In this document: in pieces, positions 7,939-48,688 of the stretch
Numbering within the stretch: the stretch's first letter is position 1
How the letters are laid out: each line of letters begins with the position of its first letter
IMG/VR virus record: IMGVR_UViG_3300018080_008436
Coordinates: 184,998 to 248,997 of that record
From: a virus
Direction: 5' to 3' (one strand)
Length of the DNA: 64,000 nucleotides
Notes under the pieces: model-generated
Databases searched by the model: none
What the model was told of the DNA's origin: nothing
The model's input: only the letters and a program-made list of their open reading frames with translations
Made by a program: the position numbers and the translations under genes

Positions 7939-7975
7939 CTCAGAGTCATAAGTTGTTGAAAATTAATGACTTTTG

Positions 7976-8355
7976 TGGAGATGGCGAGAGTCGAACTCGC
8001 GTCCAGTATATCGATCCAAAAAGGTCTCTACATGCATAGTTGAGTGATTGTTTTTCAGGCTCATCCCAACAAGCCCTTAATCGTCTTACCGATTGTAGCA
8101 GTCTTTCCTATTGTCAGCGATCTTTCTCGTCGTAGCGTCCTATTCCACCAACGTGATCTTTTCTTCTGTCTGCTCAGTTAAAAACAGGCAACCCTGAGTA
8201 AGACATCCGCTTGATTAAGCGGCTACTGCCGAAGCAGTAGGGAATTCAATTACTTTTTTAGCAATTATATTTTTGACCGATGATTAACGAGGCCAACGAT
8301 CATCCTCGACATGCAACCTAGATTTCATGACACCTGTCGATACCATTTCATCCCC
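7976..8355 (-). ncRNA. ssrA: Transfer-messenger RNA (tmRNA, ssrA)
   Basis: The 3' end has the tRNA-like part: T-arm GCGAG-TTCGACT-CTCGC and an acceptor 3' arm CATCTCC. This pairs with GGGGATG at the 5' end (positions 8355-8349) in seven base pairs, followed by A73; CCA is not encoded. The tag frame runs 8262-8215 and ends in TAA, giving AKKVIEFPTASAVAA if resumption is at the GCT codon. The AVAA end matches the known degron style (E. coli ends ALAA). At about 380 nt the length is typical. It would rescue stalled ribosomes and tag products for ClpP-type proteolysis. Confidence 0.95.
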
Positions 8356-10310: not shown

Positions 10311-10338
10311 TTGAAAAGCCCAAAAGACAGCTTATAAT
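10311..10338 (+). promoter_or_regulatory. Promoter of the Gln/Asn tRNA operon
   Basis: TTGAAA (10311-10316), 16-nt spacer, TATAAT (10333-10338). The stretch from CTTGAAAAGC through TATAAT closely matches the promoters of the other two tRNA operons at 39091-39118 and 54404-54431. Confidence 0.8.
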
Positions 10339-10378
10339 GGTAGCAACGATCAATTAAGATCAATAAGGAATTAATAAA

Positions 10379-10453
10379 ATGTCAGTACAAGTTCAGCAGA
10401 ATAATCAAAATAACCAAGCCCTTGAGGGTTTTGGGAGGTTGTTCTCTGCTTGA
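10379..10453 (+). CDS. Leader peptide of the Gln/Asn tRNA operon, 24 aa
   Basis: ATG preceded by AAGGA; stop TGA at 10451. The peptide has QVQQNNQNNQ at residues 4-13: five Gln and four Asn codons among ten. The downstream tRNAs are Gln, Asn, Asn, Asn-like and Gln. Bases 10421-10432 of the ORF can pair with the 5' arm of the terminator that follows. I infer an attenuation leader: ribosome stalling at Gln or Asn codons would expose the antiterminator segment. Confidence 0.8.
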   Translation: MSVQVQQNNQNNQALEGFGRLFSA

Positions 10454-10470
10454 ACATAATCCGATTTACC

Positions 10471-10503
10471 AAAGCCCTCAGGTTTCGACCTGGGGGCTTT
10501 TTT
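10471..10503 (+). terminator. Intrinsic terminator acting as attenuator before the Gln/Asn tRNAs
   Basis: Stem AAAGCCCTCAGG (10471-10482) with CCTGGGGGCTTT (10489-10500), loop TTTCGA, then a T run; the first tRNA begins two bases later. The alternative partner of its 5' arm is CTTGAGGGTTTT (10421-10432) inside the leader ORF: 12 base pairs including two G-U. An upstream hairpin CCAAGCCC/GGGTTTTGG would sequester that segment. Confidence 0.85.
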
Positions 10504-10505
10504 AT

Positions 10506-10582
10506 TGTCCGATAGCATAACTGGCTAATGCAACTGGTTCTGATCCAGTAGATTCTAGGTTCAAATCCTAGTCGGACAACCA
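10506..10582 (+). tRNA. tRNA-Gln (anticodon CTG)
   Basis: Acceptor TGTCCGA/TCGGACA, D-stem GCAT/ATGC, anticodon loop TTCTGAT, A73 and encoded CCA. U1-A72 is usual for Gln tRNAs. First tRNA after the Gln/Asn attenuator. Confidence 0.93.
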
Positions 10583-10584
10583 AT

Positions 10585-10658
10585 GGCTCTGTAGCTCAGT
10601 GGCGAGCATTTGGCTGTTAACCAAAAGGAAGCGAGTTCGATTCTCGTCGGGGCCTCCA
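10585..10658 (+). tRNA. tRNA-Asn (anticodon GTT)
   Basis: Complete cloverleaf: acceptor GGCTCTG/CGGGGCC, anticodon stem TTTGG/CCAAA with loop CTGTTAA, T-arm GCGAG-TTCGATT-CTCGT, CCA encoded. The discriminator is U73, not the G73 expected for Asn. Confidence 0.9.
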
Positions 10659-10680
10659 GAAGTTCTTTGATAATTTATGT

Positions 10681-10771
10681 TGGTAGGTGACCCGAATGGT
10701 AAGGGCCTCGGCTGTTAACCGAGTATGGGCAGGGATGTCCTTTGCGAGTTCAAGTCTCGCCCTACCAGCCA
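10681..10771 (+). tRNA. tRNA with Asn anticodon (GTT) and long variable arm
   Basis: 91 nt. Acceptor TGGTAGG/CCTACCA, G73, CCA. Anticodon stem CTCGG/CCGAG, loop CTGTTAA. The variable arm is about 20 nt with a 5-bp stem GGGCA/TGTCC, and the D-stem is only CCC/GGG. That is class II architecture, normal for Ser, Leu and Tyr but not Asn. U1-A72, G73 and GTT fit Asn identity, so it probably decodes Asn, but charging could be unusual. Confidence 0.8.
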
Positions 10772-10774
10772 AAC

Positions 10775-10899
10775 TGTGGCGTAGCTTAATGGTTAAAGCT
10801 CTAAAAGAAAGGAGTCTGATAATAAGACTCGTTACTGCAATAATTATTCTAAATTCGTCTATTAAACGAGAGATCTTGGTTCGAATCCAAGCGCCACAG
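10775..10899 (+). tRNA. tRNA-Asn-like (anticodon ATT) with a 53-nt insert
   Basis: Acceptor TGTGGCG/CGCCACA, G73, D-stem GCTT/AAGC, T-arm CTTGG-TTCGAAT-CCAAG. The only standard anticodon arm is TTCGT-CTATTAA-ACGAG (10854-10870), giving ATT. Between D-arm and anticodon arm lie 53 extra bases (10801-10853) containing the hairpin GAGTCT/AGACTC. A homologous insert sits at the same place in tRNA-Cys. CCA is not encoded (CTA). Confidence 0.7.
10801..10853 (+). other. Insert within the tRNA-Asn-like gene
   Basis: Hairpin GAGTCT-GATAATA-AGACTC followed by CTGCAATAATTA. It aligns with the insert at 13228-13273 in tRNA-Cys: stems differ by compensating changes, while the loop GAYA-ATA and the downstream GCAATA are kept. 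An intron is one explanation, a permanent extra domain another. Confidence 0.65.
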
Positions 10900-10907
10900 C
10901 TAATGAT

Positions 10908-10984
10908 TGCCTCGTAGCATAATTGGTATTGCACCAGATTTTGATTCTGGGAATTTCTGGGTTCGAGTCCCAGCGAGGCATCCA
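10908..10984 (+). tRNA. tRNA-Gln (anticodon TTG)
   Basis: Acceptor TGCCTCG/CGAGGCA, anticodon stem CCAGA/TCTGG with loop TTTTGAT, T-arm CTGGG-TTCGAGT-CCCAG, CCA encoded. Last tRNA of the Gln/Asn cluster before the HNH gene. Confidence 0.93.
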
Positions 10985-11023
10985 TTTTTTACCACAAATC
11001 GTTCTATTGGTAACATTAATTTG

Positions 11024-11029
11024 TATAAT
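11024..11029 (+). promoter_or_regulatory. -10 box for the HNH gene
   Basis: TATAAT with AAAACT between it and the ATG at 11036; no Shine-Dalgarno is possible downstream of the predicted start point. No good -35 box. Confidence 0.45.
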
Positions 11030-11035
11030 AAAACT

Positions 11036-11779
11036 ATGTTCCCAAAAGTGGAGTCGGTTGTGAAAGAAAGGGAAAAAAGAAGTTTACTTTGGCACAAATA
11101 TAATGATGAAGAATTTAGAGAACTAGTAAAAAAGTCTCAAACATATTCTGACATACTTAGAGATCATGGCATGTCAAACAAAGGGGGGAATTGCAACACG
11201 CTAAAAAAGAGAATTGCTAAACTTGGGGTTAATGACGATCATATTGCAAAGGGGCATTCTTCTAATAAAGGTAAAAAGTTCATCTCTAAAAAGATTCCAC
11301 TTAATAAGATACTTGTAGAAAATTCTACCTACAATAGGGGGCATCTAAAAAATAGAATTATAGAAGAGAAACTAATAGATTACAAATGTCAAAAATGCGG
11401 AATAACAAATAAATGGGAAGGCAGTGAACTTGTTTTAGTACTTGATCACATAAATGGTGTCAGTAATGATCATCGACTAAAAAACCTTCGTTTTCTATGC
11501 CCCAACTGCAACAGCCAGACAAAAACTTTTGCTGGAAGAAGTAAACGCAAAAGATATTACTGTGAACAATGCGGAAAAGAAAAATCGTATAAGCATTCTA
11601 AAAAATGCAAAAGTTGTGCCGCAAAAGATCTAGAAAAACGTAAAGTCCAAAACCGCCCTTCCAAAGAAGAACTTGCCGAAATGATTGATACAATGTCTTG
11701 GCTGGCAATCGGAAAAAAATATGGAGTTTCTGATAATGCAATCAGAAAATGGGCAAGATCTTACGGTATAATATCCTAA
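11036..11779 (+). CDS. HNH homing endonuclease with C-terminal HTH
   Basis: 247 aa. I start at ATG 11036 because the longer frame overlaps tRNA-Gln and a TATAAT (11024-11029) ends 6 nt before it, suggesting a leaderless transcript. The central HNH domain reads YKCQKCGITN, then VLDHINGVSNDHRLKNLRFL and CPNC. A CEQCG/CKSC zinc ribbon and an HTH segment (WLAIGKKYGVSDNAIRKWARS) follow. The last ~50 residues are almost the same as in the endonuclease at 37443-38318. It sits inside a tRNA region, typical of selfish homing genes. Confidence 0.88.
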   Translation: MFPKVESVVKEREKRSLLWHKYNDEEFRELVKKSQTYSDILRDHGMSNKGGNCNTLKKRIAKLGVNDDHIAKGHSSNKGKKFISKKIPLNKILVENSTYNRGHLKNRIIEEKLIDYKCQKCGITNKWEGSELVLVLDHINGVSNDHRLKNLRFLCPNCNSQTKTFAGRSKRKRYYCEQCGKEKSYKHSKKCKSCAAKDLEKRKVQNRPSKEELAEMIDTMSWLAIGKKYGVSDNAIRKWARSYGIIS

Positions 11780-12847: not shown

Positions 12848-13203
12848 AACCATTTGAAGAAGTCTTTAAGATGTATCACGACATGGCAGGAGAGTGGAGA
12901 ATGAATCTCGACAATCTGGCTTCTCTTCATCCTGACAGTCATATTGTTTTCGGAGCCGAAGAACCTGAATATGTATCAAAAGACTCTGTTATTGAAATGG
13001 ATGTTTATCTCGCTGGAGAGAAAATCGGAGTCACAAGAGCCTGCGGAGAATTAGACAATGATGTCATTCGCAGAAATATGATTGGAATGAAAAGAGTCGG
13101 AGTAAAAAATGAGAGTGGTCATCACAATGCTTACTCCACAGGATTTGAGTTAACAGTTGATAAGGATAATAAAAGGATAGATTTAACTCCAAAAAAGTTT
13201 TAG
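12844..13203 (+). CDS. Hypothetical protein, 119 aa
   Basis: MKPFEEVFKMYHDMAGEWRM and a beta-rich second half (HNAYSTGFELTVDKDNKRID). No family recognised. Its start overlaps the previous stop, and its TAG stop shares one base with the 5' end of tRNA-Cys, so transcription likely continues into that tRNA. Confidence 0.7.
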   Translation: MKPFEEVFKMYHDMAGEWRMNLDNLASLHPDSHIVFGAEEPEYVSKDSVIEMDVYLAGEKIGVTRACGELDNDVIRRNMIGMKRVGVKNESGHHNAYSTGFELTVDKDNKRIDLTPKKF

Positions 13204-13322
13204 GTCGCGTAGTGTAATGGCAAGCATCTTATAAAATGAACCTGACATAAGGTTCTCTTCAGCAATAGTTAAAATCGTCTGCAAAACGAAGGGTCTGGGT
13301 TCGAATCCCAGCGCGACCTCCA
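13203..13322 (+). tRNA. tRNA-Cys (anticodon GCA) with a 46-nt insert
   Basis: Acceptor GGTCGCG/CGCGACC, U73 (the Cys discriminator), CCA; T-arm CTGGG-TTCGAAT-CCCAG; anticodon loop CTGCAAA on a TCGT/ACGA stem (13275-13289). Between D-arm and anticodon arm are 46 extra bases (13228-13273). rtcB begins 93 nt downstream. Confidence 0.8.
13228..13273 (+). other. Insert within tRNA-Cys
   Basis: Hairpin GAACCT-GACATA-AGGTTC then CAGCAATAGTTA. Homologous to the insert at 10801-10853, with compensating stem changes and the same position between D-arm and anticodon arm. Confidence 0.65.
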
Positions 13323-13414: not shown

Positions 13415-14683
13415 ATGATAATTTTGAAAGGCAAATACAACGAAGCGAAGATTTTCACAGATAACGTTGAATCTTCTGCTCAGGGCCAGATCATTACCTT
13501 CTTAAATGACAAAACATTTGAGAACGGAAATATCAGGATCATGCCAGATGTTCATGCAGGTGCAGGAGCCGTTATCGGGTTTACCGCTCCAGTTGGAGAT
13601 AGGATCATTCCAAACGTCATTGGAGTTGATATTGGCTGTGGAGTCTGCGCGTTCAAACTTGGACACAGAAAAGACATTGGTGAGAAGTTTGACAAACTCG
13701 ACAAATTCATTGAAAAAACCATTCCTCATGGAATGAACGTTAATGGGGACTACAGAGATCTAGCCAAAAGCGGATATTGTGGAACCAAGGATGAGTTTGA
13801 CGCATTTACCGCAGAAGTAAAAGAAGTCTGCAATAGAACTGAACAGAACTTTACCAGAGTTATGTGCTCTTTGGGTTCTTTAGGTGGTGGAAACCATTTC
13901 ATTGAAATTGACAAAGATGACGAAGGTAACCTCTGGTTAGTTGTTCATTCTGGTTCCAGGAATTTCGGTTTACAGATCGCCAAGTATCACCAGAACAAAG
14001 CAAAAGAATACTTGGACTTCATGAAATCGTCTGAGAACGCTAAGTTAGTGGCAGAAGTCAAAAAGACTGCGAACAAAAAAGAGATATCTGGGAAGATCAA
14101 AAAAGCCAAAGATGAGGCTAAAGAGAAGTATGGTGTACATACTGGTCTTGAGTATCTTGAAGGTGGAGGTGCTGACCAATATAAAAAGGATATGGACGTA
14201 GCTCAAAGGTTCGCAAGTTTTAACCGATTGGTTATGGTTGGTCGAATCGTTGAAGGTTTTTATGGACTGAAGTATTCAGAGATGGAAGTTTATCACTCAA
14301 TCCATAACTATATCAACTTCGAAGATGGAATCGTTCGAAAAGGAGCAATCTCTGCTCATTGTGGTGAGAAAGTTGTCATTCCTTTAAATATGGCTGATGG
14401 AACAATCATTGGCATCGGAAAAGGAAATGAGGACTGGAATAACAGTGCGCCTCATGGAGCAGGACGTAAAATGTCCCGTTCAAAAGCCAAGAAGTCTTTG
14501 GATGTGGATTATTTCAGGAAAAGAATGAAACAAGCTGGAGTCTGGTCTAGTTGTGTTGGAAAAAGTACATTGGATGAAGCACCAATGGCTTACAAAAAGG
14601 CCCAAGAGATTATTGACTATTTGGAGCCAACTGTTGAGATCCAATGTCACATGAAACCAGTTTATAACTTCAAGGCGCATTAA
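13415..14683 (+). CDS. rtcB: RNA ligase RtcB
   Basis: 422 aa, near the usual ~410-480. Landmarks: VDIGCGV with the metal-binding Cys75, GGGNHFIE (Asn160, His161), HSGSRNFG (His178) and NSAPHGAGRKMS, where His347 is the guanylylated residue. RtcB joins RNA 2',3'-cyclic phosphate or 3'-phosphate ends to 5'-OH ends using GTP and Mn2+, in tRNA splicing or repair. AGGTAGAAAG precedes the ATG. It follows a tRNA-Cys with an intron-like insert, so tRNA maturation or repair is the likely job. Confidence 0.95.
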   Translation: MIILKGKYNEAKIFTDNVESSAQGQIITFLNDKTFENGNIRIMPDVHAGAGAVIGFTAPVGDRIIPNVIGVDIGCGVCAFKLGHRKDIGEKFDKLDKFIEKTIPHGMNVNGDYRDLAKSGYCGTKDEFDAFTAEVKEVCNRTEQNFTRVMCSLGSLGGGNHFIEIDKDDEGNLWLVVHSGSRNFGLQIAKYHQNKAKEYLDFMKSSENAKLVAEVKKTANKKEISGKIKKAKDEAKEKYGVHTGLEYLEGGGADQYKKDMDVAQRFASFNRLVMVGRIVEGFYGLKYSEMEVYHSIHNYINFEDGIVRKGAISAHCGEKVVIPLNMADGTIIGIGKGNEDWNNSAPHGAGRKMSRSKAKKSLDVDYFRKRMKQAGVWSSCVGKSTLDEAPMAYKKAQEIIDYLEPTVEIQCHMKPVYNFKAH

Positions 14684-16356: not shown

Positions 16357-17337
16357 ATGAAGAGAATTATTTTTTTTTGTTTGGCGGTAATTTGTGTAAC
16401 AGTATTTGCGAAAGATGAGAACAAATACAGATCGATCTCTTTGTATGAAGAGAATGACATTGTTGCAGGCACTGACCTTGACTATACAAATGGTTTCAGG
16501 TTACAGTACATCAGTAGTGATATTGAGACCTGGGACTTGCCAGACTGGGCCATCAAAATTGGCAAGAATCTTCCGTTATTCAATCATGAAGGTTACAAAA
16601 ACAATATTGGGATCGGATTTGGTCAGGATATGTACACTCCTACCGATATTGAAGATTTCAATTTAAGAGAAGATGACAGGCCATACGCAGGATGGCTGTA
16701 TTTAGCCTTTAGTCTACATCATAAAGACGAAAATGATTTACATAAGTTGGAGTTGACGTTGGGAGTTGTTGGTCCTTACTCATTAGCTTGTGATACCCAA
16801 AAAACAATTCATGAGTGGATTGATTCAAGAAACCCAAATGGTTGGGATCATCAGTTGGGTAATGAGTTCGGCTTGAACCTATCTTATGAATTCCGCAAGA
16901 AGTATCTTTTCTTAGATAATTGGGTTGATGTTATCCCTAGTGCTAAGGTTAGTATTGGTAACGTTTCAACATATTTAGCAACTGGAACTACTGTTCGTTG
17001 TGGATATAACTTGCCGAATGATTTTCATAGCAACAGGATTAGTTCTTCTGGGTTTGCTTTGCCAACCAATTACAGCAACAAAGGGGATTGGAGTGTTTAT
17101 ATTTTTGGCAATGTAACTGGATATGCAGTTGCTAGAGACATCTTCTTGGATGGAAATACCTTTGAGGACAGTCATAGCGTCGATAAGAAGCATTTTAAGG
17201 CCGAATTCGAGCTAGGAGTCGGGATGAGCTACAAACGCTTTTTTATGACCTATACAAGGGTTTATAAGACGAAAGAGTATGATACTCAGGAAAAGAATCA
17301 TACTTATGGATCTGTAAACCTTGGATTCAGGTTCTAA
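16357..17337 (+). CDS. Lipid A 3'-O-deacylase-like outer-membrane protein (LpxR family)
   Basis: 326 aa with a signal peptide (MKRIIFFCLAVICVTVFA) and AGGAG upstream. LpxR-family blocks: LYEENDI, DLDYTNGFRLQY, GFGQDMYTPTDIED, DDRPYAGWLYLAFS, LGVVGP, QKTIHEW and NGWDHQLGNE, ending in a beta-strand with terminal Phe (NLGFRF), the usual sign of an outer-membrane barrel. Family members remove the 3'-acyloxyacyl chain of lipid A at the outer membrane. In a phage it could remodel host LPS during infection, for example against superinfection; that role is inference. Confidence 0.85.
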   Translation: MKRIIFFCLAVICVTVFAKDENKYRSISLYEENDIVAGTDLDYTNGFRLQYISSDIETWDLPDWAIKIGKNLPLFNHEGYKNNIGIGFGQDMYTPTDIEDFNLREDDRPYAGWLYLAFSLHHKDENDLHKLELTLGVVGPYSLACDTQKTIHEWIDSRNPNGWDHQLGNEFGLNLSYEFRKKYLFLDNWVDVIPSAKVSIGNVSTYLATGTTVRCGYNLPNDFHSNRISSSGFALPTNYSNKGDWSVYIFGNVTGYAVARDIFLDGNTFEDSHSVDKKHFKAEFELGVGMSYKRFFMTYTRVYKTKEYDTQEKNHTYGSVNLGFRF

Positions 17338-23570: not shown

Positions 23571-26500
23571 TTATTCCTCAAAACCATCTCCAAAATACTG
23601 CTCTGGGAATGCCTCTGAGCTACTTGATTCTGAATATTCTTCGGAACTACTACTTGATTCTGAATATTCTTCGGAACTACTACTTGATTCAGATTCTGAA
23701 CTTGAACTTTCGCTTTCTGAACTACTTGATTCGCTTTCTGAACTACTTGATTCTGAATATTCTTCGGAACTACTACTTGATTCAGATTCTGAACTTGAAC
23801 TTTCGCTTTCTGAACTGCTTGATTCGCTTTCTGAACTGCTTGATTCGCTTTCTGAACTTTCACTCTGGGATGAGGACGATTCAGACTGAGAACTACTGGA
23901 CTCTGACTGAGATGATTCACTCTGGGAACTACTGGATTCTGATTTGGAACTACTGGATTCACTTTGAGATGATTCACTCTGGGAACTACTAGATTCTGAC
24001 TGAGAACTATCACTCTGGGATGAGGACGATTCAGATTTGGAACTACTAGATTCTGACTGAGAACTATCACTCTGAGAACTACTAGATTCTGATTTGGAAC
24101 TACTAGATTCTGACTGAGAACTATCACTCTGAGAACTACTAGAACTTTCTGAATAACCTTCTGAACTAGTTGAAGAACTTTCTGAATATTGTTCAGAACT
24201 AGAACTTGATTCATTTGGACAATCATATGGAGCAGTTGGAACATCAAAATTATCAGTCCAAACAGCTAAACCTTTAACAATTCTAACTTCATCTATATGA
24301 CCACCAAAATATGTTCCACCTCTGGTATAATATCCTATGTAAGATTGTTGGGTAAAATTAGTAAATGTACCTGAGTATGAGCCAGTTGATGTTTGAGCTA
24401 CACCATCAATATACAAGGTCTGCGTATTATTATCTGCATTATGAACAAACGCAATATGCGTCCATGTACTGGAAGAAATCGCACTATTACTCATAATTTC
24501 AAAATCCCAAGATCCTCCAGTAAGATGACCAGCATACACAACTCCGTTCAATGCTACATAAACTGTGAATAAGTTGTTTGTATCTGTACGAAATTCTATA
24601 AGTCCTCCGCCAGCAGTATATCGTGCCCAACAATCAAACGTAAGGCTCCCAGATCCGATGTTCCAATCATCGCTGTCAGGAATTGATAGGTAATCAGAAT
24701 TACCATCTAACAAGAGACTTGCTCCACCAAATTTACTTTGAGCAGTATCAACTTGAGCAGTGCCATTTGCCGTAACAACATGTTTACTGTCAGATTCATC
24801 TGGGAAGTTAGTTGATCCATCCTCTCCGTCGCAGTGAAGAAGAAGTTTTGTATTCAAGCAAACTTGTTCAGTTGACTCAGATGAACTTTCTGAGTAACCT
24901 AACGAAGACGAACTAGAACTCTCTGAATAACCTTCTGAACTACTACTTGATTCTGAACTTGAACTTTCGCTTTCTGAACTGCTTGATTCGCTTTCTGAAC
25001 TGCTTGATTCGCTTTCTGAACTGCTTGATTCGCTTTGTGAACTGCTTGATTCGCTTTGTGAACTATTTGACTGAGAGCTACTTGACTCTGATTGAGATGA
25101 CTCACTCTGAGAACTAATACTTTCAGTAAAAAGATCACAAGGAAGATAGATGTGATTTATATTCTCAGTTGAACTACTTGAGCTTTCTGATTTGGAACTA
25201 CTTGATTCAGAGTAATTTTCTGAAGAACTTGAACTTCCTGAGCTTTCAGATTGAGAACTTTCAGATTGGGACGACTCTGATTGAGAACTTGAACTTTCAG
25301 ATGAACTACTGGATTGTGACGACTCAGATTGCGAAGAAGAACTTTCAGATTGCGAAGAAGAACTCTCTGAGAATCCTTCAGATGAACTACTGGATTGTGA
25401 CGACTCAGACTGCGAAGAGGAACTTTCAGATTGCGAAGAAGAACTCTCTGAGAATCCTTCAGATGAACTACTGGATTGTGACGACTCAGACTGCGAAGAG
25501 GAACTTTCAGACTGCGAAGAAGACGATTCTGATTGACTACTTTCTGAATACCCACCTGAACTACTAGACTCTGATTGTGATGACTCTGATTGTGATGACT
25601 CTGAGCTAATACTCTCAGTAAACAAGTCACACTCTCTATACCTATGTCGAACATTCTCGGTTGAACTACTGGATGAGTTACTACTAGAGGATTCACTACT
25701 AGAGGATTCACTACTTATGCTTTCAGTAAACAATTCGCAAGGAAGATAGCCGAAGTGAACATTCTCAGTTGAGCTACTTGAAGACTCACTTGATTCGGAT
25801 TGAGATGATTCACTTTGAGATGAAGACGACTCAGATTCAGATTTTGATGATTCACTCTGAGAACTGTCTGATTGTGATGAACTGGATTCAGATTTTGATG
25901 ATTCACTCTGACTACTTGAGCTTTCTGACTTACTGGATTCTGATTGACTACTGTCAGACTGCGAACTGTCTGATTGACTACTGTCAGACTGCGAACTTGA
26001 GGACTCAGATTTTGACGATTCACTTTGAGATGATTCAGAATAAGAACTTATACTTTCAGTAAACAAATCACATGGAGCGTACTCATGATTTACATTCTCA
26101 GTGGAAGAACTGCTTGAACTCTCTGATTGAGAACTCTCACTTTGACTAGAAGATGATTCTGATTGAGAGGAGCTTGATTCTGAATAATTCTCAGAACTTG
26201 TGCTTGAACTCTCAGAATAACCTTCACTTGAAGTCGATGAACTTGAATCCTTGGAAGAACTTGAACTTGAATCCTTGGAAGAACTTGAAGAACTTACAGG
26301 ACAAACTCCAGGCTCTAACGTTGGCGCAGGAGATGTTCCTGTATTTACAAACCATTCCAATGAACTTGGTGATACCCATGGTGCTGTTACGGCTGTATCG
26401 TATACAGATACTCCATCTAAGATATCAGACATCGTCCATTTACTTGAATCTGAAAAATATAAAAACCTAGATCCGTTGTAATAATATGTTGTATCATTAT

Positions 26501-29500
26501 GTACTCCAGCACTCAAATAATTCCCATTATAGCTCCCATCTCCCGCCAATTCTGCACAATATCTAATTGCCAAATCTTCGCTAGATATTGAGCTTGTACT
26601 GGATGACTCAGAATAATTCTCTGATGAACTTGACTCAGATTGAGAGGAACTTGATTCTGATTGAGATGATTCAGATTGAGAACTACTTGATTCACTTTGA
26701 GACGAAGAGCTTTCGGATTGACTACTTGATGATTCAGACTGAGATGATTCAGACTGAGATGAAGATGATTCAGACTGAGAAGAACTTGACTCACTTTGTG
26801 ATGACTCAGATTGAGAACTTTCAGATTGACTACTATCTGATTGTGATGAGCTTGACTCAGATTGAGATGAAGAACTCTCAGACTGAGAGCTTATACTCTC
26901 TGTAAATAAATCACATTCTGCATACTCAAAATTGACATTCTCAGTTGAAGAACTGCTTGAATCACTTTGAGAGCTACTGGATTCAGAATAATTTTCAGAA
27001 GAGCTACTGGATTCGCTTTTTGAGCTTGAAGATTCTGACTGAGATGAAGAACTTTCAGAATAATTTTCAGAAGAACTACTGGATTCGCTTTGCGAACTTT
27101 CTGATTGAGATGACTCACTCTGAGATGATTCTGATTGAGAACTACTTGACTCAGAATAATTTTCTGATGAACTCGAACTTCTTGAGCTTTCGCTTTGCGA
27201 ACTATCTGATTGTGATGAACTTGACTCAGATTGAGATGAAGAACTCTCAGACTGAGAACTTATACTCTCTGTAAATAAATCACATTCTGCATACTCAAAA
27301 TTGACATTCTCAGTTGAAGAACTGCTTGAATCACTTTGAGAGCTACTGGATTCAGAATAATTTTCAGAAGAACTACTGGATTCGCTTTGTGAGCTTGAAG
27401 ATTCTGACTGAGATGAAGAACTTTCAGAATAATTTTCAGAAGAACTACTGGATTCGCTTTGCGAACTTTCTGATTGAGACGACTCACTCTGAGATGATTC
27501 TGATTGAGAACTACTTGACTCAGAATAATTTTCTGATGAACTCGAACTTCTTGAGCTTTCGCTTTGCGAACTATCTGATTGTGATGAGCTTGACTCAGAT
27601 TGAGATGAAGAACTCTCAGACTGAGAACTTATACTCTCTGTAAAAAGCGCACACTCTTCATATACATAATTAATGTTCTCAGTTGAACTACTAGACGATT
27701 CTGATTGACTACTACTTGACTCCGATTGAGAACTACTCGACTCCGATTGAGAACTACTTGATTCTGATTGAGATGAAGAACTCTCAGAATAGTTTTCTGA
27801 AGAACTTGACGATTCAGATTGGCTACTGCTTGATTCACTCTGAGATGAAGACGATTCAGATTGAGACGATTCACTCTGAGATGAGGATGATTCAGATTTG
27901 GAACTACTTGATTCTGATTGAGATGATTCACTCTGAGATGACTCTGATTTACTGCTACTTGATTCACTTTCAGATTGAGAACTCTCGGACAAAGATGAAC
28001 TTGACTCGCTTTGAGAACTTTCACTCTGAGAGCTACTGGACTCGCTTTGAGATGAGCTTGATTCAGACTGAGAACTTTCAGATTGAGAACTAGAGCTTTC
28101 TGATTGGCTACTGGAACTTTCAGATTGAGATGAACTCGATTCAGATTGAGATGATTCACTTTGGCTACTTTCGCTTTGTGAACTGCTTGATTCTGATTGA
28201 CTACTTGAACTCTCTGATTGAGATGACTCACTCTGAGAACTAATACTCTCGGTAAATAAATCACAAAGTGCGTACTCAAAATTAACATTCTCAGTTGAAC
28301 TACTTGAACTTTCACTTTTTGAACTAGAGCTTTCGGAGACTGAGCTTTCGGAGACTGAGCTTTCAGAATAATTCTCAGAACTTGTACTTGACGATTCTGA
28401 ATAATTTTCACTTGAAGTCGATGAACTTTCAGAACTCGCAGAATAAACTTCGCTTGAAGTCGATGAACTTGAATCCTTGGAAGAACTTGAACTTGAATCC
28501 TTGGAAGAACTTGAAGAACTTACAGGACAAACTCCAGGTTCTAGTGTTGGAGCAGGAGGAGTCCCAGAAATTACAAACCATTCCAATGAACTCGGTGACA
28601 CCCATGGTTCTGTTGAGGCCGTATTATATGCAGAAGTACCTCCTAGAACATCAGACATTACCCATTTACTTGAATCTGAGAAATATAAGAACCTAGATCC
28701 GTTGTAATAATATGTTGTATCATTATGTACTCCAGCTATCTGGTAATTTCCATTAAATGATATGTCTCCAGCAAGCTCAACACAAATAGTTCCTGGCAGA
28801 TTCCCACTAGAAATTGAAGAACTTGAAGAAAACTGCTCTGAACTACTTGAACTTCCTGATGACTCAGAACTATTTGAATATTGTTCTGATGAACTACTTG
28901 ATTCAGATTTGGAACTAGACGATTCTGATTGAGATGAGGAACTTTCTGACTGGGATGATTCTGACTGTGAAGACTCGCTCTGAGAACTGCTGGATTCACT
29001 TTGGCTACTAGAACTTTCACTCTGGGAACTGCTAGATTCTGATTGGCTACTGTCAGACTGGGAGCTTTCGCTTTGAGAACTTTCAGATTGCGAACTAGAA
29101 GATTCACTGTCACTCTGGGACGAATCGCTCTTTGAACTACTAGATTCGCTTTGAGATGATTCGCTTTGAGATGATTCGCTTTGAGATGATTCAGATTGGG
29201 AACTCTCACTTTGACTAGATGATGATTCAGATTTACTACTGCTTGATTCAGACTGGGAACTTTCTGACTGACTGCTACTCGATTCACTCTGAGAGGAGGA
29301 ACTTTCTGACTGAGAACTCTCGGATTGAGACGACTGAGAAGATTCTGATTGAGAGCTTGAGCTTTCTGACTGGGAGCTATCACTTTGGCTACTGCTACTC
29401 TCTGACTGAGAAGATTCAGATTGTGAACTACTTGATTCAGATTGTGAACTACTTGATTCAGATTGTGAACTGCTACTCTCTGACTGAGATGATGAGCTTT

Positions 29501-31154
29501 CTGATTGAGAACTTTCAGATTTACTACTGCTCGATTCACTTTGGGAAGACTCAGATTTGGATGATTCAGATTGGGATGATGAACTCTCTGATTTTGAACT
29601 ACTGGATTCGGATTGAGACGATTCACTCTTACTACTACTGGACTCGCTTTGAGAGCTTTCGGATTGAGACGAAGAACTTTCAGACTGCGATGATGAACTC
29701 TCGGATTGAGATGACTCAGATTGGGAACTCTCAGATTGTGAGCTAGAAGACTCGCTATCACTCTGGGACGACTCAGATTGGGAACTGCTAGACTCAGACT
29801 TACTACTCTCAGATTGAGACGATTCTGACTGTGAACTTTCACTTTGAGAACTACTTGATTCACTTTGAGAGGATGAACTCTCGGACTGACTACTCTCACT
29901 CTTTGAACTACTTGACTCTGATTGGGACGACTCACTCTTTGAACTACTTGACTCTGATTGGGACGACTCACTCTGAGACGATTCCGACTGTGAACTTTCA
30001 CTTTGAGAACTGCTTGATTCTGATTGAGAACTTTCGGACTGACTACTTTCACTCTTTGAACTACTTGATTCACTCTGAGATGATTCACTCTGAGATGATT
30101 CACTCTGAGATGATTCACTCTGAGAGCTACTTGATTCCGATTGAGAACTCTCACTTTGAGAACTTTCAGAATGCGCCAAACTTGAAGTTGATGAACTTGA
30201 ATCCTTGGAAGAACTTGAACTTGAATCCTTGGAAGAACTCGAAGAGCTTACAGGACAAATTCCGTTCTCTGTTACTGGGGCTGGAGGAGTTCCATTATCA
30301 ACAAACCAAGACAAATACCCAGGACCAATCCAAGGGGGAACTAAGTTTGTACTATACGCAGATACCCCTCCAAGAGTCGTTGACAATGTCCATCTACTAA
30401 GATTCGAATAAAATAGAAATCTTGATCCACTGGAATAATAAACTGTCTCATTGTAAATGCCAACAGCACTGTAAGTAGCATTATAAGAAGTATCTCCAGC
30501 ATGTTCCACACAAACATCATCTATCAAACCGCCACTAGAAATTGAAGAACTTGAAGAAAACTGCTCTGAACTACTTGATTCAGATTGAGATGAGGAGCTT
30601 TCACTATATAGTTGAGATGAGGAGCTACTTTCACTTGACTCACTTGAGATACTTCTGGAACTATCGGAATAATTCTCTGATGAACTTGACTCGCTTGAGA
30701 TACTACTTGAACTCTCAGATGATCCAGAGCTAACACTATATTGTTCTGAACTACTTGAGCTACTTTCACTAGAGCTACTATCACATAAAGTTGGGAGACG
30801 AACAATAGTTATTGAAGGCCAAACGCCTGTTGTAGTTTGAGCATCAATAAATGTTTGAACCTGTGGTATTGTTGGGTCAGGAGTTATGATATCTGTGAAC
30901 ACCCAAGCATATTCACAACGAACATCATTAATTGATCTGTCAACATTGCCATCAAAATCAGCATCAGGTATCTCAGGAAGTCTAGCAACAGTTATCGATG
31001 GCCAAACGCCTGTTGCTGTTTGAGCATCAACAAAATCTTGAACCTGAGCTATACTTGGGTTAGGAGTAAATTGATCTACAAAAACCCAAGCATAATAAAT
31101 ACGAACATCATTTATAGTGATGTCTTTGTCATTGTCGAAATCTGCACAACCCAT
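23571..31154 (-). CDS. Giant serine-rich repeat protein with dockerin-like N-terminus, 2527 aa
   Basis: N-terminus (1-130) has two dockerin-like calcium-binding repeats: CADFDNDKDITINDVRIYYA and DADFDGNVDRSINDVR. Then follow about 1,900 residues of SSSSQSES/SSQSES-type repeats. Three ~95-residue modules interrupt them near residues 205-300, 785-880 and 1525-1620, each ending GICPV/GVCPVSSSSSSKDSSS. About eight short STENVNFEY...CDLFTES motifs also occur. A LamG-like lectin domain lies near 2100-2320 (CDGEDGSTNF, GGHIDEVRIVKG). A further Ser/Glu tail ends FGDGFEE. Comparable to serine-rich repeat adhesins in design. Likely an extended virion fibre and possible glycosylation target (inference). 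Confidence 0.75.
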   Translation of the reverse strand: MGCADFDNDKDITINDVRIYYAWVFVDQFTPNPSIAQVQDFVDAQTATGVWPSITVARLPEIPDADFDGNVDRSINDVRCEYAWVFTDIITPDPTIPQVQTFIDAQTTTGVWPSITIVRLPTLCDSSSSESSSSSSEQYSVSSGSSESSSSISSESSSSENYSDSSRSISSESSESSSSSQLYSESSSSQSESSSSEQFSSSSSISSGGLIDDVCVEHAGDTSYNATYSAVGIYNETVYYSSGSRFLFYSNLSRWTLSTTLGGVSAYSTNLVPPWIGPGYLSWFVDNGTPPAPVTENGICPVSSSSSSKDSSSSSSKDSSSSTSSLAHSESSQSESSQSESSSSQSESSQSESSQSESSQSESSSSKSESSQSESSQSESSSSQSESSQSESSQSESSQSESSSSKSESSQSESSSSKSESSQSESSSSQSESSSSQSESSQSESSQSESSKSESSSSQSESSQSDSESSSSQSESSQSESSQSESSSSQSESSSSQSESSQSESSSSKSESSQSESSSSKSESSSSQSESSKSESSQSESSSSKSESSQSESSSSQSESSSSQSESSSSQSESSSSQSESSQSESSSSQSDSSQSESSSSQSESSQSSQSESSQSESSSSQSESSSSQSESSQSESSSSKSESSSSQSESSQSESSQSESSQSESSQSESSSSKSDSSQSDSESSSSQSESSQSESSQSDSSQSESSSSQSESSSSQSESSSSQSESSQSESSQSESSSSQSESSSSKSESSSSSEQYSNSSESSGSSSSSEQFSSSSSISSGNLPGTICVELAGDISFNGNYQIAGVHNDTTYYYNGSRFLYFSDSSKWVMSDVLGGTSAYNTASTEPWVSPSSLEWFVISGTPPAPTLEPGVCPVSSSSSSKDSSSSSSKDSSSSTSSEVYSASSESSSTSSENYSESSSTSSENYSESSVSESSVSESSSSKSESSSSSTENVNFEYALCDLFTESISSQSESSQSESSSSQSESSSSQSESSQSESSQSESSSSQSESSSSQSESSSSQSESSQSESSSSQSESSSSQSESSQSESSSSLSESSQSESESSSSKSESSQSESSQSESSSSKSESSSSQSESSQSESSSSQSESSSSQSESSSSSENYSESSSSQSESSSSQSESSSSQSESSSSQSESSSSSTENINYVYEECALFTESISSQSESSSSQSESSSSQSDSSQSESSRSSSSSENYSESSSSQSESSQSESSQSESSQSESSSSSENYSESSSSQSESSSSQSESSSSSENYSESSSSQSDSSSSSTENVNFEYAECDLFTESISSQSESSSSQSESSSSQSDSSQSESSRSSSSSENYSESSSSQSESSQSESSQSESSQSESSSSSENYSESSSSQSESSSSKSESSSSSENYSESSSSQSDSSSSSTENVNFEYAECDLFTESISSQSESSSSQSESSSSQSDSSQSESSQSESSQSESSSSQSESSSSQSESSQSESSSSQSESSSSQSESSSSQSESSQSESSSSQSESSSSENYSESSSTSSISSEDLAIRYCAELAGDGSYNGNYLSAGVHNDTTYYYNGSRFLYFSDSSKWTMSDILDGVSVYDTAVTAPWVSPSSLEWFVNTGTSPAPTLEPGVCPVSSSSSSKDSSSSSSKDSSSSTSSEGYSESSSTSSENYSESSSSQSESSSSQSESSQSESSSSSSTENVNHEYAPCDLFTESISSYSESSQSESSKSESSSSQSDSSQSDSSQSDSSQSESSKSESSSSQSESSKSESSSSQSDSSQSESSKSESESSSSQSESSQSESSESSSSSTENVHFGYLPCELFTESISSESSSSESSSSNSSSSSTENVRHRYRECDLFTESISSESSQSESSQSESSSSGGYSESSQSESSSSQSESSSSQSESSQSSSSSEGFSESSSSQSESSSSQSESSQSSSSSEGFSESSSSQSESSSSQSESSQSSSSSESSSSQSESSQSESSQSESSGSSSSSENYSESSSSKSESSSSSTENINHIYLPCDLFTESISSQSESSQSESSSSQSNSSQSESSSSQSESSSSESESSSSESESSSSESESSSSESSSSSEGYSESSSSSSLGYSESSSESTEQVCLNTKLLLHCDGEDGSTNFPDESDSKHVVTANGTAQVDTAQSKFGGASLLLDGNSDYLSIPDSDDWNIGSGSLTFDCWARYTAGGGLIEFRTDTNNLFTVYVALNGVVYAGHLTGGSWDFEIMSNSAISSSTWTHIAFVHNADNNTQTLYIDGVAQTSTGSYSGTFTNFTQQSYIGYYTRGGTYFGGHIDEVRIVKGLAVWTDNFDVPTAPYDCPNESSSSSEQYSESSSTSSEGYSESSSSSQSDSSQSESSSSKSESSSSQSDSSQSESSSSKSESSSSQSDSSQSESSSSQSESSQSESSSSKSESSSSQSESSQSESSSSQSESSSSQSESSESESSSSESESSSSESESSSSESESSSSSEEYSESSSSESESSSSESESSSSESESSSSSEEYSESSSSSEEYSESSSSEAFPEQYFGDGFEE
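24900..30170 (-). repeat. Low-complexity Ser/Glu/Gln coding repeats
   Basis: Degenerate 12-15 nt units encoding SSSSQSES, SSQSES and SSSSKSES are repeated hundreds of times, broken only by the three Cys-containing modules and the CDLFTES motifs. Nearly identical blocks at about 26880-27250 and 27245-27620 indicate recent internal duplication. Confidence 0.85.
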
Positions 31155-37352: not shown

Positions 37353-37440
37353 TGGTGGAGCCGACAGGATTCGAACCTGCGCGGAGCTTGCGCTCTCTTG
37401 ATTAAAAGTCAAGTACCTTCAGCCACTCGGTTACGACTCC
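37353..37440 (-). tRNA. tRNA with Lys anticodon (TTT) on a Ser-like class II body
   Basis: Acceptor GGAGTCG/CGGCTCC, A73, CCA. D-arm ACCGAGTGGCTGAAGGT as in Ser tRNAs; anticodon stem CTTGA/TCAAG with loop CTTTTAA. Variable arm GAGC-GCAA-GCTC. A normal tRNA-Lys(TTT) exists at 38490. Identity is ambiguous: SerRS reads the long arm, LysRS the anticodon. Confidence 0.8.
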
Positions 37441-37442
37441 AA

Positions 37443-38318
37443 TTAAATTATTCCATAACTTCTCGCCCATTTACGAATTGTATTACATGTTACCCCATAT
37501 TTTTTACCAATAGCAACCCAAGTCATCTTATCTATCATGTCTTTTAGCTCTTCTTTAGATGGGCGATTCTGAACCTTACGACGACTTGGCAACTTACCAT
37601 TACATGAAGTACATCTGGTGCTTCTATGCTCAATTGCTTTGTTGCAATCTACACATCTATTTGTTTTTTCTTCCTCTAGCTTTTTAACATATTCCTCTAT
37701 GGTTGTTTCAATTTTACAGTTTGCACATTTGTCCTTAATGACATTTTTGATCTGGGCAACAACCATTTTTCTATGCTTTTTGTCAAGCTTATTGTATTTA
37801 GACCACCTGATTCTATATACGAACCATCCATTGTCTTCCAAATATTTATTTCTACGCTTATCACTTTTTATTATTTTTTCATCGCAATAATGTTGCTCTC
37901 CATCGATTTCTATGTCTATTTTTCTTATTGGATCAGAGAAATCGAGTTGATATGTGCCAACTCTGTGATGGTATATTAACTCTATATTCTCATTTCTAAA
38001 TAACTTCTCAAAATATTTTTCTGGGTACGACATTCCTTTGCTATGATGGTTAAGTAAATACGGGACTTTATCTGGATTTTCTTTAAGAAACTTTCTTCTT
38101 GCCTTACTAATCTTTTCTTTTGTTTTCTCTGACAGTTTTCTGGGTTTTAGTTTACAACTTAATTTCATGGCACTCGATCTTTCTCTTGATACAAAATCTC
38201 CTCGTTTTCTGGCAGACGTAATTGCCGCCATACTAACTCCAAATTCCTCAATAACTTCTCTCCATGTATGTCCTTCGTCATAAAACTTCTGAATTTCAAT
38301 CCAATTGTATCTAGGCAT
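37443..38318 (-). CDS. Vsr-like (PD-(D/E)XK) homing endonuclease with shared HTH tail
   Basis: 291 aa. N-terminal HTH (WREVIEEFGVSMAAITSARK), a NUMOD3-like KLSEKTKEKISKARR, then a Vsr/DUF559-type nuclease core (IDIEIDGEQHYCDE...KYLEDNGWFVYRIRWSK). A two-CxxC ribbon and a C-terminal HTH (VAIGKKYGVTCNTIRKWARS) follow, nearly identical to the HNH protein at 11036-11779. It lies between tRNA-Lys genes of the Thr/Lys operon. AGGAGTG precedes the ATG. A mobile homing gene is the likeliest reading. Confidence 0.88.
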   Translation of the reverse strand: MPRYNWIEIQKFYDEGHTWREVIEEFGVSMAAITSARKRGDFVSRERSSAMKLSCKLKPRKLSEKTKEKISKARRKFLKENPDKVPYLLNHHSKGMSYPEKYFEKLFRNENIELIYHHRVGTYQLDFSDPIRKIDIEIDGEQHYCDEKIIKSDKRRNKYLEDNGWFVYRIRWSKYNKLDKKHRKMVVAQIKNVIKDKCANCKIETTIEEYVKKLEEEKTNRCVDCNKAIEHRSTRCTSCNGKLPSRRKVQNRPSKEELKDMIDKMTWVAIGKKYGVTCNTIRKWARSYGII

Positions 38319-38407: not shown

Positions 38408-38484
38408 TGGTGGGCTGGGTGGGACTTGAACCCACGACCAACGGAGTAAGAATCCGCGACTCTATCCAACTGAGTTACCAACCC
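38408..38484 (-). tRNA. tRNA-Lys (anticodon CTT)
   Basis: Acceptor GGGTTGG/CCAGCCC, D-stem CTC/GAG, anticodon stem GCGGA/TCCGT with loop TTCTTAC, T-arm GTGGG-TTCAAGT-CCCAC, A73, CCA. Confidence 0.92.
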
Positions 38485-38489
38485 ATTTT

Positions 38490-38564
38490 TGGTGGACCTG
38501 GAGAATTTTGAAATCTCGACCAACGGATTAAAAGTCCGCGACTCTGCCTCTGAGTTACAGGTCC
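38490..38564 (-). tRNA. tRNA-Lys (anticodon TTT)
   Basis: Acceptor GGACCTG/CAGGTCC, anticodon stem GCGGA/TCCGT with loop CTTTTAA, A73, CCA. The T-arm is odd: GAGAT-TTCAAAA-TTCTC has a T-T mismatch where G53-C61 is normally invariant, so it may be weak or decaying. Confidence 0.82.
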
Positions 38565-38619
38565 AAAGTGAGAGAGCATATCTACTTCGAAGACTTAACA
38601 ATATGCTTTTAAACTCTCT

Positions 38620-38695
38620 TGGAGCCGCCTGACGGAATTGAACCGACATCCTCTGAGTACAAAACAGAGATAATAATCCTTTATACTAAGGCGGC
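38620..38695 (-). tRNA. tRNA-Thr (anticodon TGT)
   Basis: Acceptor GCCGCCT/AGGCGGC, U73, CCA. Anticodon stem CTCTG/CAGAG holds nine loop bases TTTTGTACT (or a U-U pair closing a 7-base loop), centre TGT. One mismatch in the T-stem. Confidence 0.82.
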
Positions 38696-38701
38696 GTCAT
38701 A

Positions 38702-38773
38702 AGCCCTTGCCCAGCAACGATCTGGGACTAATCCCTTACGAGGGGATAGTTCTGCCAATTAAACTACAAGGGC
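38702..38773 (-). tRNA. tRNA-Thr (anticodon CGT)
   Basis: Acceptor GCCCTTG/CAAGGGC, anticodon stem ATCCC/GGGAT with loop CTCGTAA. The T-loop reads ATCGTTG instead of TTCRANY, and CCA is not encoded. Confidence 0.8.
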
Positions 38774-38801
38774 ATCTTACTTAAATTTTCAAAGATCATT
38801 C

Positions 38802-38876
38802 TGGAGCATCCAATCGGACTCGAACCGATAACCCCCTCCTTACCATGGAGGAATTCTACCATTGAACTATGGATGC
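38802..38876 (-). tRNA. tRNA-Thr (anticodon GGT)
   Basis: Acceptor GCATCCA/TGGATGC, anticodon stem CCTCC/GGAGG with loop ATGGTAA, T-arm ATCGG-TTCGAGT-CCGAT, U73, CCA. First tRNA after the Thr/Lys attenuator. Confidence 0.9.
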
Positions 38877-38883
38877 ATAGGCA

Positions 38884-38918
38884 CAAAAAAACCCGAAGTC
38901 TTTATCGGACTTCGGGTT
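38884..38918 (-). terminator. Attenuator terminator before the Thr/Lys tRNAs
   Basis: Minus strand AACCCGAAGTC (38918-38908) pairs with GACTTCGGGTT (38900-38890), then T6. Its 5' arm can instead pair with GGCTTCGGG (38965-38957) at the end of the leader ORF, nine base pairs with one G-U. CCACG/CGTGG upstream could shield that segment. Confidence 0.85.
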
Positions 38919-38940
38919 GGTCAGTATCTTTACGTTCAGG

Positions 38941-39018
38941 TCAAGACAACAAACCTCCCGAAGCCACGCGTTTCTTCGTGGTTTTGGTTGTTTTAGTTGT
39001 CTTGGTTGTAGCGTACAT
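38941..39018 (-). CDS. Leader peptide of the Thr/Lys tRNA operon, 25 aa
   Basis: AAGGA precedes ATG 39018. Residues 4-16 read TTKTTKTTKTTKK: eight Thr (all four codons) and five Lys in 13 codons. The tRNAs that follow are Thr, Thr, Thr, Lys, Lys and, past the endonuclease, another Lys anticodon. Layout equals that of the leaders at 10379 and 54375, and recalls the Thr-rich leader of the bacterial thr operon. Confidence 0.85.
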   Translation of the reverse strand: MYATTKTTKTTKTTKKRVASGGLLS

Positions 39019-39090
39019 TTTTAAAATTCCTTATCTTCATTTAATTGAAGTTTATGAGCATTGTTCATTAAACTCGCTCAAGTTACCCCT

Positions 39091-39118
39091 ATTATAAGCT
39101 ATGTTTGGAGCTTTTCAA
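39091..39118 (-). promoter_or_regulatory. Promoter of the Thr/Lys tRNA operon
   Basis: Minus-strand TTGAAA (39118-39113), 16-nt spacer, TATAAT (39096-39091), followed by AGGGGTAAC; shares CTTGAAAAGC and spacing with the other two tRNA operon promoters. Confidence 0.82.
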
Positions 39119-40351: not shown

Positions 40352-40416
40352 AATTGGGATTCCAGCACATTTTGTTTCGAAATATTTTTCTTTGTGCTAT
40401 ACCCAAATACCTGCAA

Positions 40417-40608
40417 TTATTTTTTGGATCGTTCCCTATTTAACGACTCTCTAAGGGAATAAGTGTCGAAGGCCATGACCGAAATCATTTCAAGCATTAC
40501 TTGATCCAAAGGCTTATAGCCACCTTTATACAATTTTAGTAAACTCTCTACGTGATAATTATGTTTGGCGATTCTCTCCAATTCCCCTAACAGCTTCCTC
40601 TTCCTCAT
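40417..40608 (-). CDS. Hypothetical protein, 63 aa
   Basis: Helical and basic (MRKRKLLGELERIAKHNYHV). It overlaps the receiver-like gene by 50 bp and lacks a clear ribosome binding site at its first ATG, so the true start may be later. Confidence 0.45.
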   Translation of the reverse strand: MRKRKLLGELERIAKHNYHVESLLKLYKGGYKPLDQVMLEMISVMAFDTYSLRESLNRERSKK

Positions 40609-41008
40609 TTGTACCAGCCATTAGTTTAATCCTTTTCTTTGTTTTCTCGATAACGTCAGCAAACTTTGAACCCCCAAAAGGGCAATAGTGACATTCCATG
40701 TCTTTATTCCTCATTTCCCTCATCATAACCTTTGCTCCACGCAAATTTAATGAGTGAACAATGATAGATAATTTCTTATTTGGAGTCTCATGAAGTCGTC
40801 TTGCAACAGTAGCCCCAGTATTAAATTCATCACTATCTACATACTGTCTTCCCTCAAGATCATGATCTAGGAAAATATAGTCATACTTATTGGTATTTAG
40901 CCACTCCATTGCAAGGTCAACTTGGTCAGTAATGTCTAACTGACATGGTAAATGCTCTCTAAAAATTGCGATTCTTCTTGGGTCATCTTCCAGGATAAAA
41001 ACTCTCAT
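40559..41008 (-). CDS. Receiver-like protein (cyclic-phosphate-processing REC type), 149 aa
   Basis: Receiver fold signatures: FILEDDPRR at the N-terminus with the acidic pair, DYIFLDHDLEG with the central Asp, and IIVHSLNLRGAKVM. The LDHDLEG plus VHSLN pattern is what I recall for the predicted cyclic-phosphate-processing receiver family (cREC), proposed to act in RNA repair rather than signalling. No output domain. RtcB also acts on cyclic-phosphate RNA ends, so a link is possible but not shown. Confidence 0.65.
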   Translation of the reverse strand: MRVFILEDDPRRIAIFREHLPCQLDITDQVDLAMEWLNTNKYDYIFLDHDLEGRQYVDSDEFNTGATVARRLHETPNKKLSIIVHSLNLRGAKVMMREMRNKDMECHYCPFGGSKFADVIEKTKKRIKLMAGTNEEEEAVRGIGENRQT

Positions 41009-41403: not shown

Positions 41404-41471
41404 TCCCCGAACCCCCTATAAATTCTCTAATACTATTATAACTTCAAAAATACATATTCCAAGAGCCACAA

Positions 41472-41501
41472 CAAAAAAGACCATAGATACCTATGGTCTT
41501 T
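41472..41501 (-). terminator. Intrinsic terminator
   Basis: Minus-strand AAAGACCATAG-GTAT-CTATGGTCTTT followed by more T, downstream of the 88-aa gene. Confidence 0.85.
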
Positions 41502-41520
41502 AAATTAGTGTTTTATTGAT

Positions 41521-41806: not shown

Positions 41807-41879
41807 TTTTAATCCTCTAATTTTGAATTTTGATTAATATTTTTGTTTCTAATTATACAAAGAAAATCCTTTATGAATT

Positions 41880-48678: not shown

Positions 48679-48688
48679 ATTATTTCTC

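Follow-up and report, generated by a model that had tools for sequence, protein, structure and literature searches.

The trp and phe operons are amino-acid operons governed by ribosome-mediated attenuators, and for textbook attenuators it is accepted that the decision falls during transcription. The phage tRNA operons analyzed here resemble the E. coli thrL and hisL systems: cognate control codons lie in a short leader ORF, RNA segments 1–4 are present, and the modeled antiterminator disappears where the control block ends. Unlike the attenuators of amino-acid operons, which regulate biosynthetic enzymes, those considered here precede phage tRNA genes, a single leader names up to seven amino acids, the product of the operon is the molecule that would be sensed, and there are seven copies in one viral genome. 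The Rfam families His_leader (RF00514), Phe_leader (RF01859), and Thr_leader (RF00506) follow the same logic and gave the best, albeit weak, leader-family matches: in a permissive search, the Gln/Asn leader scored 25.2, 16.7, and 14.8 bits against gathering cutoffs of 49, 55, and 55 bits, respectively, and because these scores lie far below the thresholds, we do not regard the phage leaders as members of these families.

For more than 50 years, there has been no clear answer to why phages have tRNA genes of their own, with codon compensation and defense evasion as the proposed reasons (PMC10264068). Phage-encoded tRNAs replace damaged host tRNAs and thereby evade host defenses that target tRNA (PMC10264068, PMC11555353), which provides a natural reason for a sensor of tRNA shortage; these papers do not propose that a shortage controls the tRNA genes, the text of PMC10264068 mentions neither attenuation nor a leader, and attenuation goes unmentioned in the text of the phiCbK and Lacusarx articles and of two articles on phage tRNAs. 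The preliminary description of the Gln/Asn operon knew of no phage tRNA genes controlled in this way, and we likewise found no report of attenuated phage tRNA genes in the open-access literature, although an earlier report elsewhere is possible. The type of switch is classical; what is new, as far as we can tell, is its application to phage tRNA genes, its presence throughout a genome, and the direct feedback by the product.

Seven leader-bearing tRNA operons in one viral record

The window, a stretch of 64,000 nucleotides, belongs to a virus record of 476,248 bases that may be incomplete and that contains 60 tRNA matches. Seven tRNA operons of this record bear a leader, three of them in the window and four outside it, the latter found by inspecting the stretches around the remaining tRNAs of the record. 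The preliminary description had reported a single operon, that for Gln/Asn, which is confirmed here; two more in the window and the four elsewhere had been overlooked. All seven share one plan, consisting of a sigma-70-like promoter, a leader ORF, a three-segment RNA switch, an intrinsic terminator, and tRNA genes. The parts of the Gln/Asn operon (10311–10984) are as follows.

10311–10338 (+): sigma-70-like promoter, TTGAAA-16-TATAAT, 11/12 consensus matches
10379–10453 (+): leader ORF, MSVQVQQNNQNNQALEGFGRLFSA, 24 codons, control block at codons 4–13
10414–10421 (+): segment 1, CCAAGCCC, which can pair with and cover segment 2 (GGGTTTTGG) and is paired in the free fold
10421–10434 (+): segment 2, antiterminator partner, 14 pairs with 10469–10482
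10471–10500 (+): segments 3 and 4, intrinsic terminator, 13 pairs followed by a T run, formed in the free fold
10506–10984 (+): tRNA-Gln(CTG), Asn(GTT), Asn(GTT), an oversized tRNA-like element, and Gln(TTG)

The promoter, the 24-codon ORF, the strong terminator, and the two Gln and two Asn tRNAs were thus all found where they had been described. The fifth element, earlier called an "Asn-like" tRNA, scores as a tRNA in Rfam (10775–10899; record 195772–195896), but ARAGORN makes no call there. The alternative partner that had been proposed inside the ORF for the 5' arm of the terminator is an exact 12-pair match, 10421–10432 (CTTGAGGGTTTT) against 10471–10482 (AAAGCCCTCAGG), and extends to 14 pairs; as also proposed, segment 1 can cover this partner. 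An AAGGA motif lies 14–10 nt 5' of the ATG, the stem at 10471–10500 is the longest among seven terminator-like sites in a terminator scan, and the composition of the leader departs from the pooled background with a –log10 p of 4.2.

The other two operons of the window lie on the minus strand.

38408–39118 (–): Thr/Lys operon, whole
39091–39118 (–; record 224088–224115): its promoter, with the promoter motif described below
38941–39018 (–): its leader ORF, MYATTKTTKTTKTTKKRVASGGLLS
38890–38918 (–): its terminator, the 5' arm of which can also pair with GGCTTCGGGAGGTT within the leader ORF
38408–38876 (–): tRNA-Thr(GGT), Thr(CGT), Thr(TGT), Lys(TTT), Lys(CTT)
37353–37440 (–): an extra tRNA-Lys(TTT), behind an endonuclease gene
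52948–54431 (–): Val/Ala/Ile operon, whole
54404–54431 (–; record 239401–239428): its promoter, with the same motif
54289–54375 (–): its leader ORF, MKKRVEIAIAVVAVAVVADGQGFSALSG
54241–54266 (–): its terminator, the 5' arm of which can also pair with GGCAGGGCTT within the leader ORF
52948–54209 (–): tRNA-Val(TAC), Ala(TGC), Ala(GGC), Val(TAC), Ile(TAT), and more tRNA-like elements

Outside the window, the leaders and the tRNAs that follow them, in record coordinates, are the following.

318638–318715 (–): MKSLSLSLCSSYLSLRWTGLCVQRT, then Cys2 Tyr2 Leu5 Ser5
303989–304069: MNVVRDMHIIRRDWSHRASDLRYRMF, then Arg4 Trp Ile2 Val Asp2 Met His
282954–283031: MNNYMYIREPEREEPPAFGRRSADL, then Glu/Pro/Glu/Pro/Glu/Pro
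277327–277371: MNNLNNIFRFFSHL, then Phe Phe

The leader ORFs range from 14 to 28 codons, each has a purine-rich stretch resembling a ribosome-binding site 5' of its ATG, and an intrinsic terminator lies between leader ORF and first tRNA gene in every operon, with two in tandem in both the E/P and the F operon. The amino acids named are Q/N, T/K, V/A/I, C/Y/L/S, R/W/I/V/D/M/H, E/P, and F, so that the seven leaders combined name 19 of the 20 amino acids, the exception being Gly; the Gly/Met operon of this genome showed no leader, and neither did its isolated tRNAs located between protein genes. All four occurrences of the promoter motif TTGAAAAGC..TTATAAT in the 476 kb lie upstream of a tRNA leader, and the reversed-sequence control contains none.

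We note two further features of the tRNA complement. One tRNA without a leader (record 409751–409822) has the anticodon CTA and would read UAG, which is the stop codon of the E/P and F leaders. TRNA-like genes of 117–125 nt, which score as tRNA in Rfam and receive no ARAGORN call, occur at 10775–10899 and 13203–13319 and at record positions 282509–282626 and 315933–316051.

Cognate composition of the leaders and folding of the switch

Counting the non-start leader residues that fall within the amino-acid set of the cluster behind, the true pairing of leaders and clusters gives 79 cognate residues and is the only one of the 5040 possible pairings to reach this value (mean 24). In a blind scan, in which all ATG ORFs of 8–42 codons upstream of each tRNA cluster were scored against permuted tRNA sets, 0 of 2000 permutations did equally well for this genome. 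At the level of anticodons, a codon that the anticodon can read precedes the switch point for 34 of 37 distinct anticodons, compared to a mean of 31.7 after synonymous randomization (P 0.14); since this is no significant excess over the amino-acid effect, codon-level matching was dropped and is not claimed. Ile and Val codons do track the isoacceptors of the cluster, with ATA and mostly GTA in the V/A/I leader vs ATT and GTT in the R/W/I/V/D/M/H leader.

To model the switch, the nascent RNA was folded with a ribosome placed at every leader codon, where it masked the 13 nt that begin with the A-site codon. The free RNA forms the terminator in all seven leaders, whereas with the ribosome inside the cognate block, and before segment 4 is synthesized, the antiterminator is the preferred predicted structure in all seven, in line with the two states that the preliminary description had envisaged. 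In the Gln/Asn leader, the modeled antiterminator probability is about 0.96–0.97 as long as the ribosome occupies the control block, the structure is lost at codon 13, and the mid-block value of 0.96 was matched by 1 of 200 dinucleotide shuffles. In each of the seven leaders, the model places the loss of the antiterminator at the end of the cognate block or near it. Defining the switch offset as the first codon at which the antiterminator probability drops below half of its plateau, counted from the last codon of the block, six leaders of this phage gave values of 0, +1, 0, 0, +1, and +2, compared to +1 and +1 for the positive controls E. coli thrL and hisL, and –3 to +2, with one at +7, for eight leaders from other phages. 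The offset of –11 listed for the R/W/I/V/D/M/H leader arises because the automatic rule stretched its block to codon 25; the antiterminator is lost at codon 14, the end of the dense block V3–W14. When the stretch from the ribosome to the terminator was dinucleotide-shuffled as a control, the combined p value was 6e-5 across the seven leaders of this phage and 7e-10 across 15 phage leaders. In most of the seven, the terminator is predicted to outcompete the antiterminator at full equilibrium, and the decision must therefore fall during transcription, through co-transcriptional folding. Taken together, the folding models with their controls and shuffles, along with the covariation described below for phiCbK-family homologues, point to an antiterminator that is incompatible with the terminator and can form only while a ribosome occupies the control codons.

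The same arrangement in other phages, and covariation

Pairs of cognate leader and tRNA cluster, to which the preliminary description had pointed as a means of verification, were found in several distant phages, namely in Tunturi_5, in uncultured huge phages of 485–642 kb (LR745208, LR745206, and LR756502), in Sphingobium phage Lacusarx, and in the phiCbK family. LR745208, an uncultured 485-kb phage reached by a TerL search (25% identity), has six tRNA clusters preceded by cognate ORFs, with 0 of 2000 permutations as good; hairpins without a U-tract terminator lie behind these leaders, and another route of termination may operate there. The leaders concerned, together with those of the other phages, are listed below.

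LR745208: MNSYTTSERERESDSERT, before Glu/Asp/Glu
LR745208: MRFFTTTRTRTAGLTRKG, before Thr3
LR745208: MNLSTHSTNTAPAATAACVVACVGPAAPPAA, before Pro/Ala
LR745208: MNQHLHHHCY, before Tyr/Cys/His
LR745208: further leaders, before Arg/Gly and Leu clusters
Tunturi_5 (cultured host): MKTLCLSSYCLSSSLSLSDGW..., before Leu/Cys/Tyr/Ser
LR745206 (example): MTTMNLNMTMNLTLNVVNITLCNIRP..., before Asn/Arg/Leu/Val/Ile/Thr/Met
CcrKarma: MFALSHNSLSTKAASPATLSLALPATATKPSTKPTTSASHSTDHL, before Pro/Lys/Leu/Ser
CcrKarma: MTHLLTRYEREATGLDTTTA, before Glu/Asp
CcrKarma: MSKTYRQFVRQIQVVRNIRAGRS..., before Phe/Val/Ile/Gln, a kind also present in phiCbK itself
Brevundimonas phage Bajun: MTSYRQNVQNIRVVRFNRTGRS..., a Phe/Val/Ile/Gln-type leader before Tyr/Val/Ile/Val/Gln/Asn/Arg
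Sphingobium phage Lacusarx: MSQSALISFREKLTTMFTRFGKRDRREGERGFSL, before Lys/Gly/Asp/Glu/Arg/Phe

A panel of nine tRNA-rich phages was picked by hand and is therefore not a basis for frequencies. Within it, Tunturi_5, LR745206, and LR756502 have terminator-type leaders, XacN1 and CcrColossus have candidate leaders, and the blind scan returned no convincing cognate leaders in LR756508, LR756511, Agrobacterium phage Atu_ph07, and Bacillus phage G; as these four are also tRNA-rich, the arrangement is not a mere byproduct of tRNA clusters. In the whole-phage permutation, the threshold of p < 0.01 was missed by Tunturi_5, LR756502, XacN1, and CcrColossus, because they have few permutable clusters or many leaderless ones, and the claim for these phages rests on the individual leaders and, for CcrColossus, also on its relatives. 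In the cultured phiCbK family, which has three kinds of leader, the records annotate some of the leader ORFs as hypothetical proteins and also mark some of the terminators, with no link between the two in the annotations seen. The cultured carriers comprise phiCbK and its relatives (Caulobacter), Bajun (Brevundimonas), Tunturi_5, and Lacusarx, and the arrangement is therefore directly testable.

The Phe/Val/Ile/Gln leader of the phiCbK family has homologues in 48 phage records, from which an alignment of 11 distinct sequences from related phages was built. Across these 11 sequences, pairing is retained in 92% of the pair cells of helix 1:2, 98% of those of helix 2:3, and 98.5% of those of helix 3:4, and both partners have changed in two, two, and four pairs, respectively, whereas sliding the partners by 1–3 columns reduces pairing to 24–63%. 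Columns 28 (segment 2), 109 (segment 3), and 125 (segment 4) change together from G, C, and G to A, U, and A in CcrSC and BL9; Bajun has A at 28 and U at 109 but G at 125, and the sole exception is CcrPW, with an A–C mismatch between columns 28 and 109. As segment 3 is common to helices 2:3 and 3:4, this covariation directly supports two mutually exclusive structures, with the caveat that its shuffle controls need caution because the sample of 11 is small and related.

The covariation that the preliminary description had expected among relatives is thus present, for all three helices, in homologous leaders of the phiCbK family; for the leaders of this phage itself, no diverged homologue was found. 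Megablast with the neighborhood gave no diverged relative, and searches with four proteins (one tail-fiber-like, one conserved hypothetical, one encoded upstream of the Arg-cluster leader, and one ADP-ribosylglycohydrolase-like) returned only the near-identical contig IMGVR_UViG_3300017991_005548 and one protein hit at 30%. The same contig was recovered by promoter-pattern scans, which otherwise gave matches without tRNAs, and TerL relatives (50–76% identity) are fragments without tRNAs.

Proposed mechanism, alternative readings, and surroundings

Judging from sequence and folding models, we consider it very likely that each of the seven operons is controlled by ribosome-mediated transcription attenuation, with the tRNAs of the operon itself as the molecules sensed. 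The leader-peptide attenuation first proposed for Gln/Asn is supported by the seven replicates within the genome, the ribosome-position model and its controls, the other phages, and the covariation. In such a mechanism, RNA polymerase would start at the sigma-70-like promoter, and a ribosome would translate the short leader ORF. With ample cognate charged tRNAs, the ribosome would clear the control codons and cover segment 2, such that terminator 3:4 forms and the tRNA genes stay off. Were any cognate charged tRNA scarce, the ribosome would stall in the control block and cover segment 1, allowing antiterminator 2:3 to form before segment 4 is made and transcription to enter the tRNA genes; untranslated RNA would fold into 1:2 and 3:4 and terminate. 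Each tRNA group would be under negative feedback, and the amino acids that a leader names would together act as an OR gate. We infer both translation of the leaders and a response of read-through to the level of charged tRNA.

What the switch responds to is a separate question. The preliminary description had thought of Gln or Asn limitation; a shortage of tRNA, through loss or cleavage of host tRNA or through high demand, appears to be the better fit, as extra tRNA cannot cure amino-acid starvation. The benefit would then lie in replacing tRNAs that the host has lost or that a defense nuclease has cut, and the broader proposal that several unrelated lineages of large phages carry a distributed tRNA-homeostasis circuit, in which a cognate leader signals the shortage of each tRNA group, nearly all amino acids are covered, and lost host tRNAs including those cleaved by defenses are replaced, has in our judgment a somewhat better than even chance of being correct. 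The same switch might instead report amino-acid starvation or the general speed of translation, with tRNA production merely coupled to it. A stalled ribosome is blind to the cause of the scarcity of charged tRNA, and amino-acid supply is what known attenuators sense (PMC1183508); nevertheless, a lack of amino acid is not relieved by extra tRNA, and the leaders name whole sets of mutually unrelated amino acids, which find a match solely in the tRNAs that their operons encode, which leaves this a possible but rather unlikely signal.

Other readings dispense with the leader as a sensor altogether. Precursors of tRNA need 5' processing, and phiCbK-family records list some of the small ORFs as hypothetical proteins, such that the hairpin could be a processing or insulating element, the ORF incidental or a micropeptide, and tRNA synthesis constitutive. 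We find this improbable, as it explains neither the cognate composition of seven different peptides, nor the antiterminator that is lost at the ends of the cognate blocks, nor the covariation of three helices. T-box riboswitches, which bind tRNA and could sense its uncharged form directly, are also tRNA sensors sited before a terminator; however, no T-box match was obtained in the window at the gathering score or for the Gln/Asn leader in the permissive search, and a T-box would have no need for control codons that are translated, making this reading scarcely credible.

If attenuation by the operon's own tRNAs is correct, a sensor that opens each operon only at shortage would show when the phage needs its tRNAs, and the role of phage tRNAs would be one of conditional replacement. 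Classical attenuation would then extend to tRNA genes and to viruses, and the leaders, by naming the tRNAs that a phage expects to lose, would offer a way to learn them.

Several neighboring genes of the window are also of interest. Endonuclease genes lie beside tRNA clusters at 10991–11779 (+) and 37443–38318 (–), one HNH and one DUF559/MTES_1575-like, and the two products share a similar C-terminal stretch (RKVQNRPSKEEL...). An array of paralogous genes at 39143–52872 (–), whose products start with IFDDYQGxSIKINGxCYxFxGET, is probably tail-fiber-like, and a 2527-codon open frame at 23571–31154 (–) is overlapped by long open frames in other frames, as expected for a repetitive protein. The gene at 16357–17337 (+) encodes an LpxR-type outer-membrane protein of the lipid A deacylase family, which is unusual for a phage and suggests a Gram-negative host. 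Finally, an RtcB RNA ligase gene lies near the Gln/Asn operon at 13415–14683 (+), and the phage encodes a tmRNA at 7973–8355 (–) with the tag AKKVIEFPTASAVAA.
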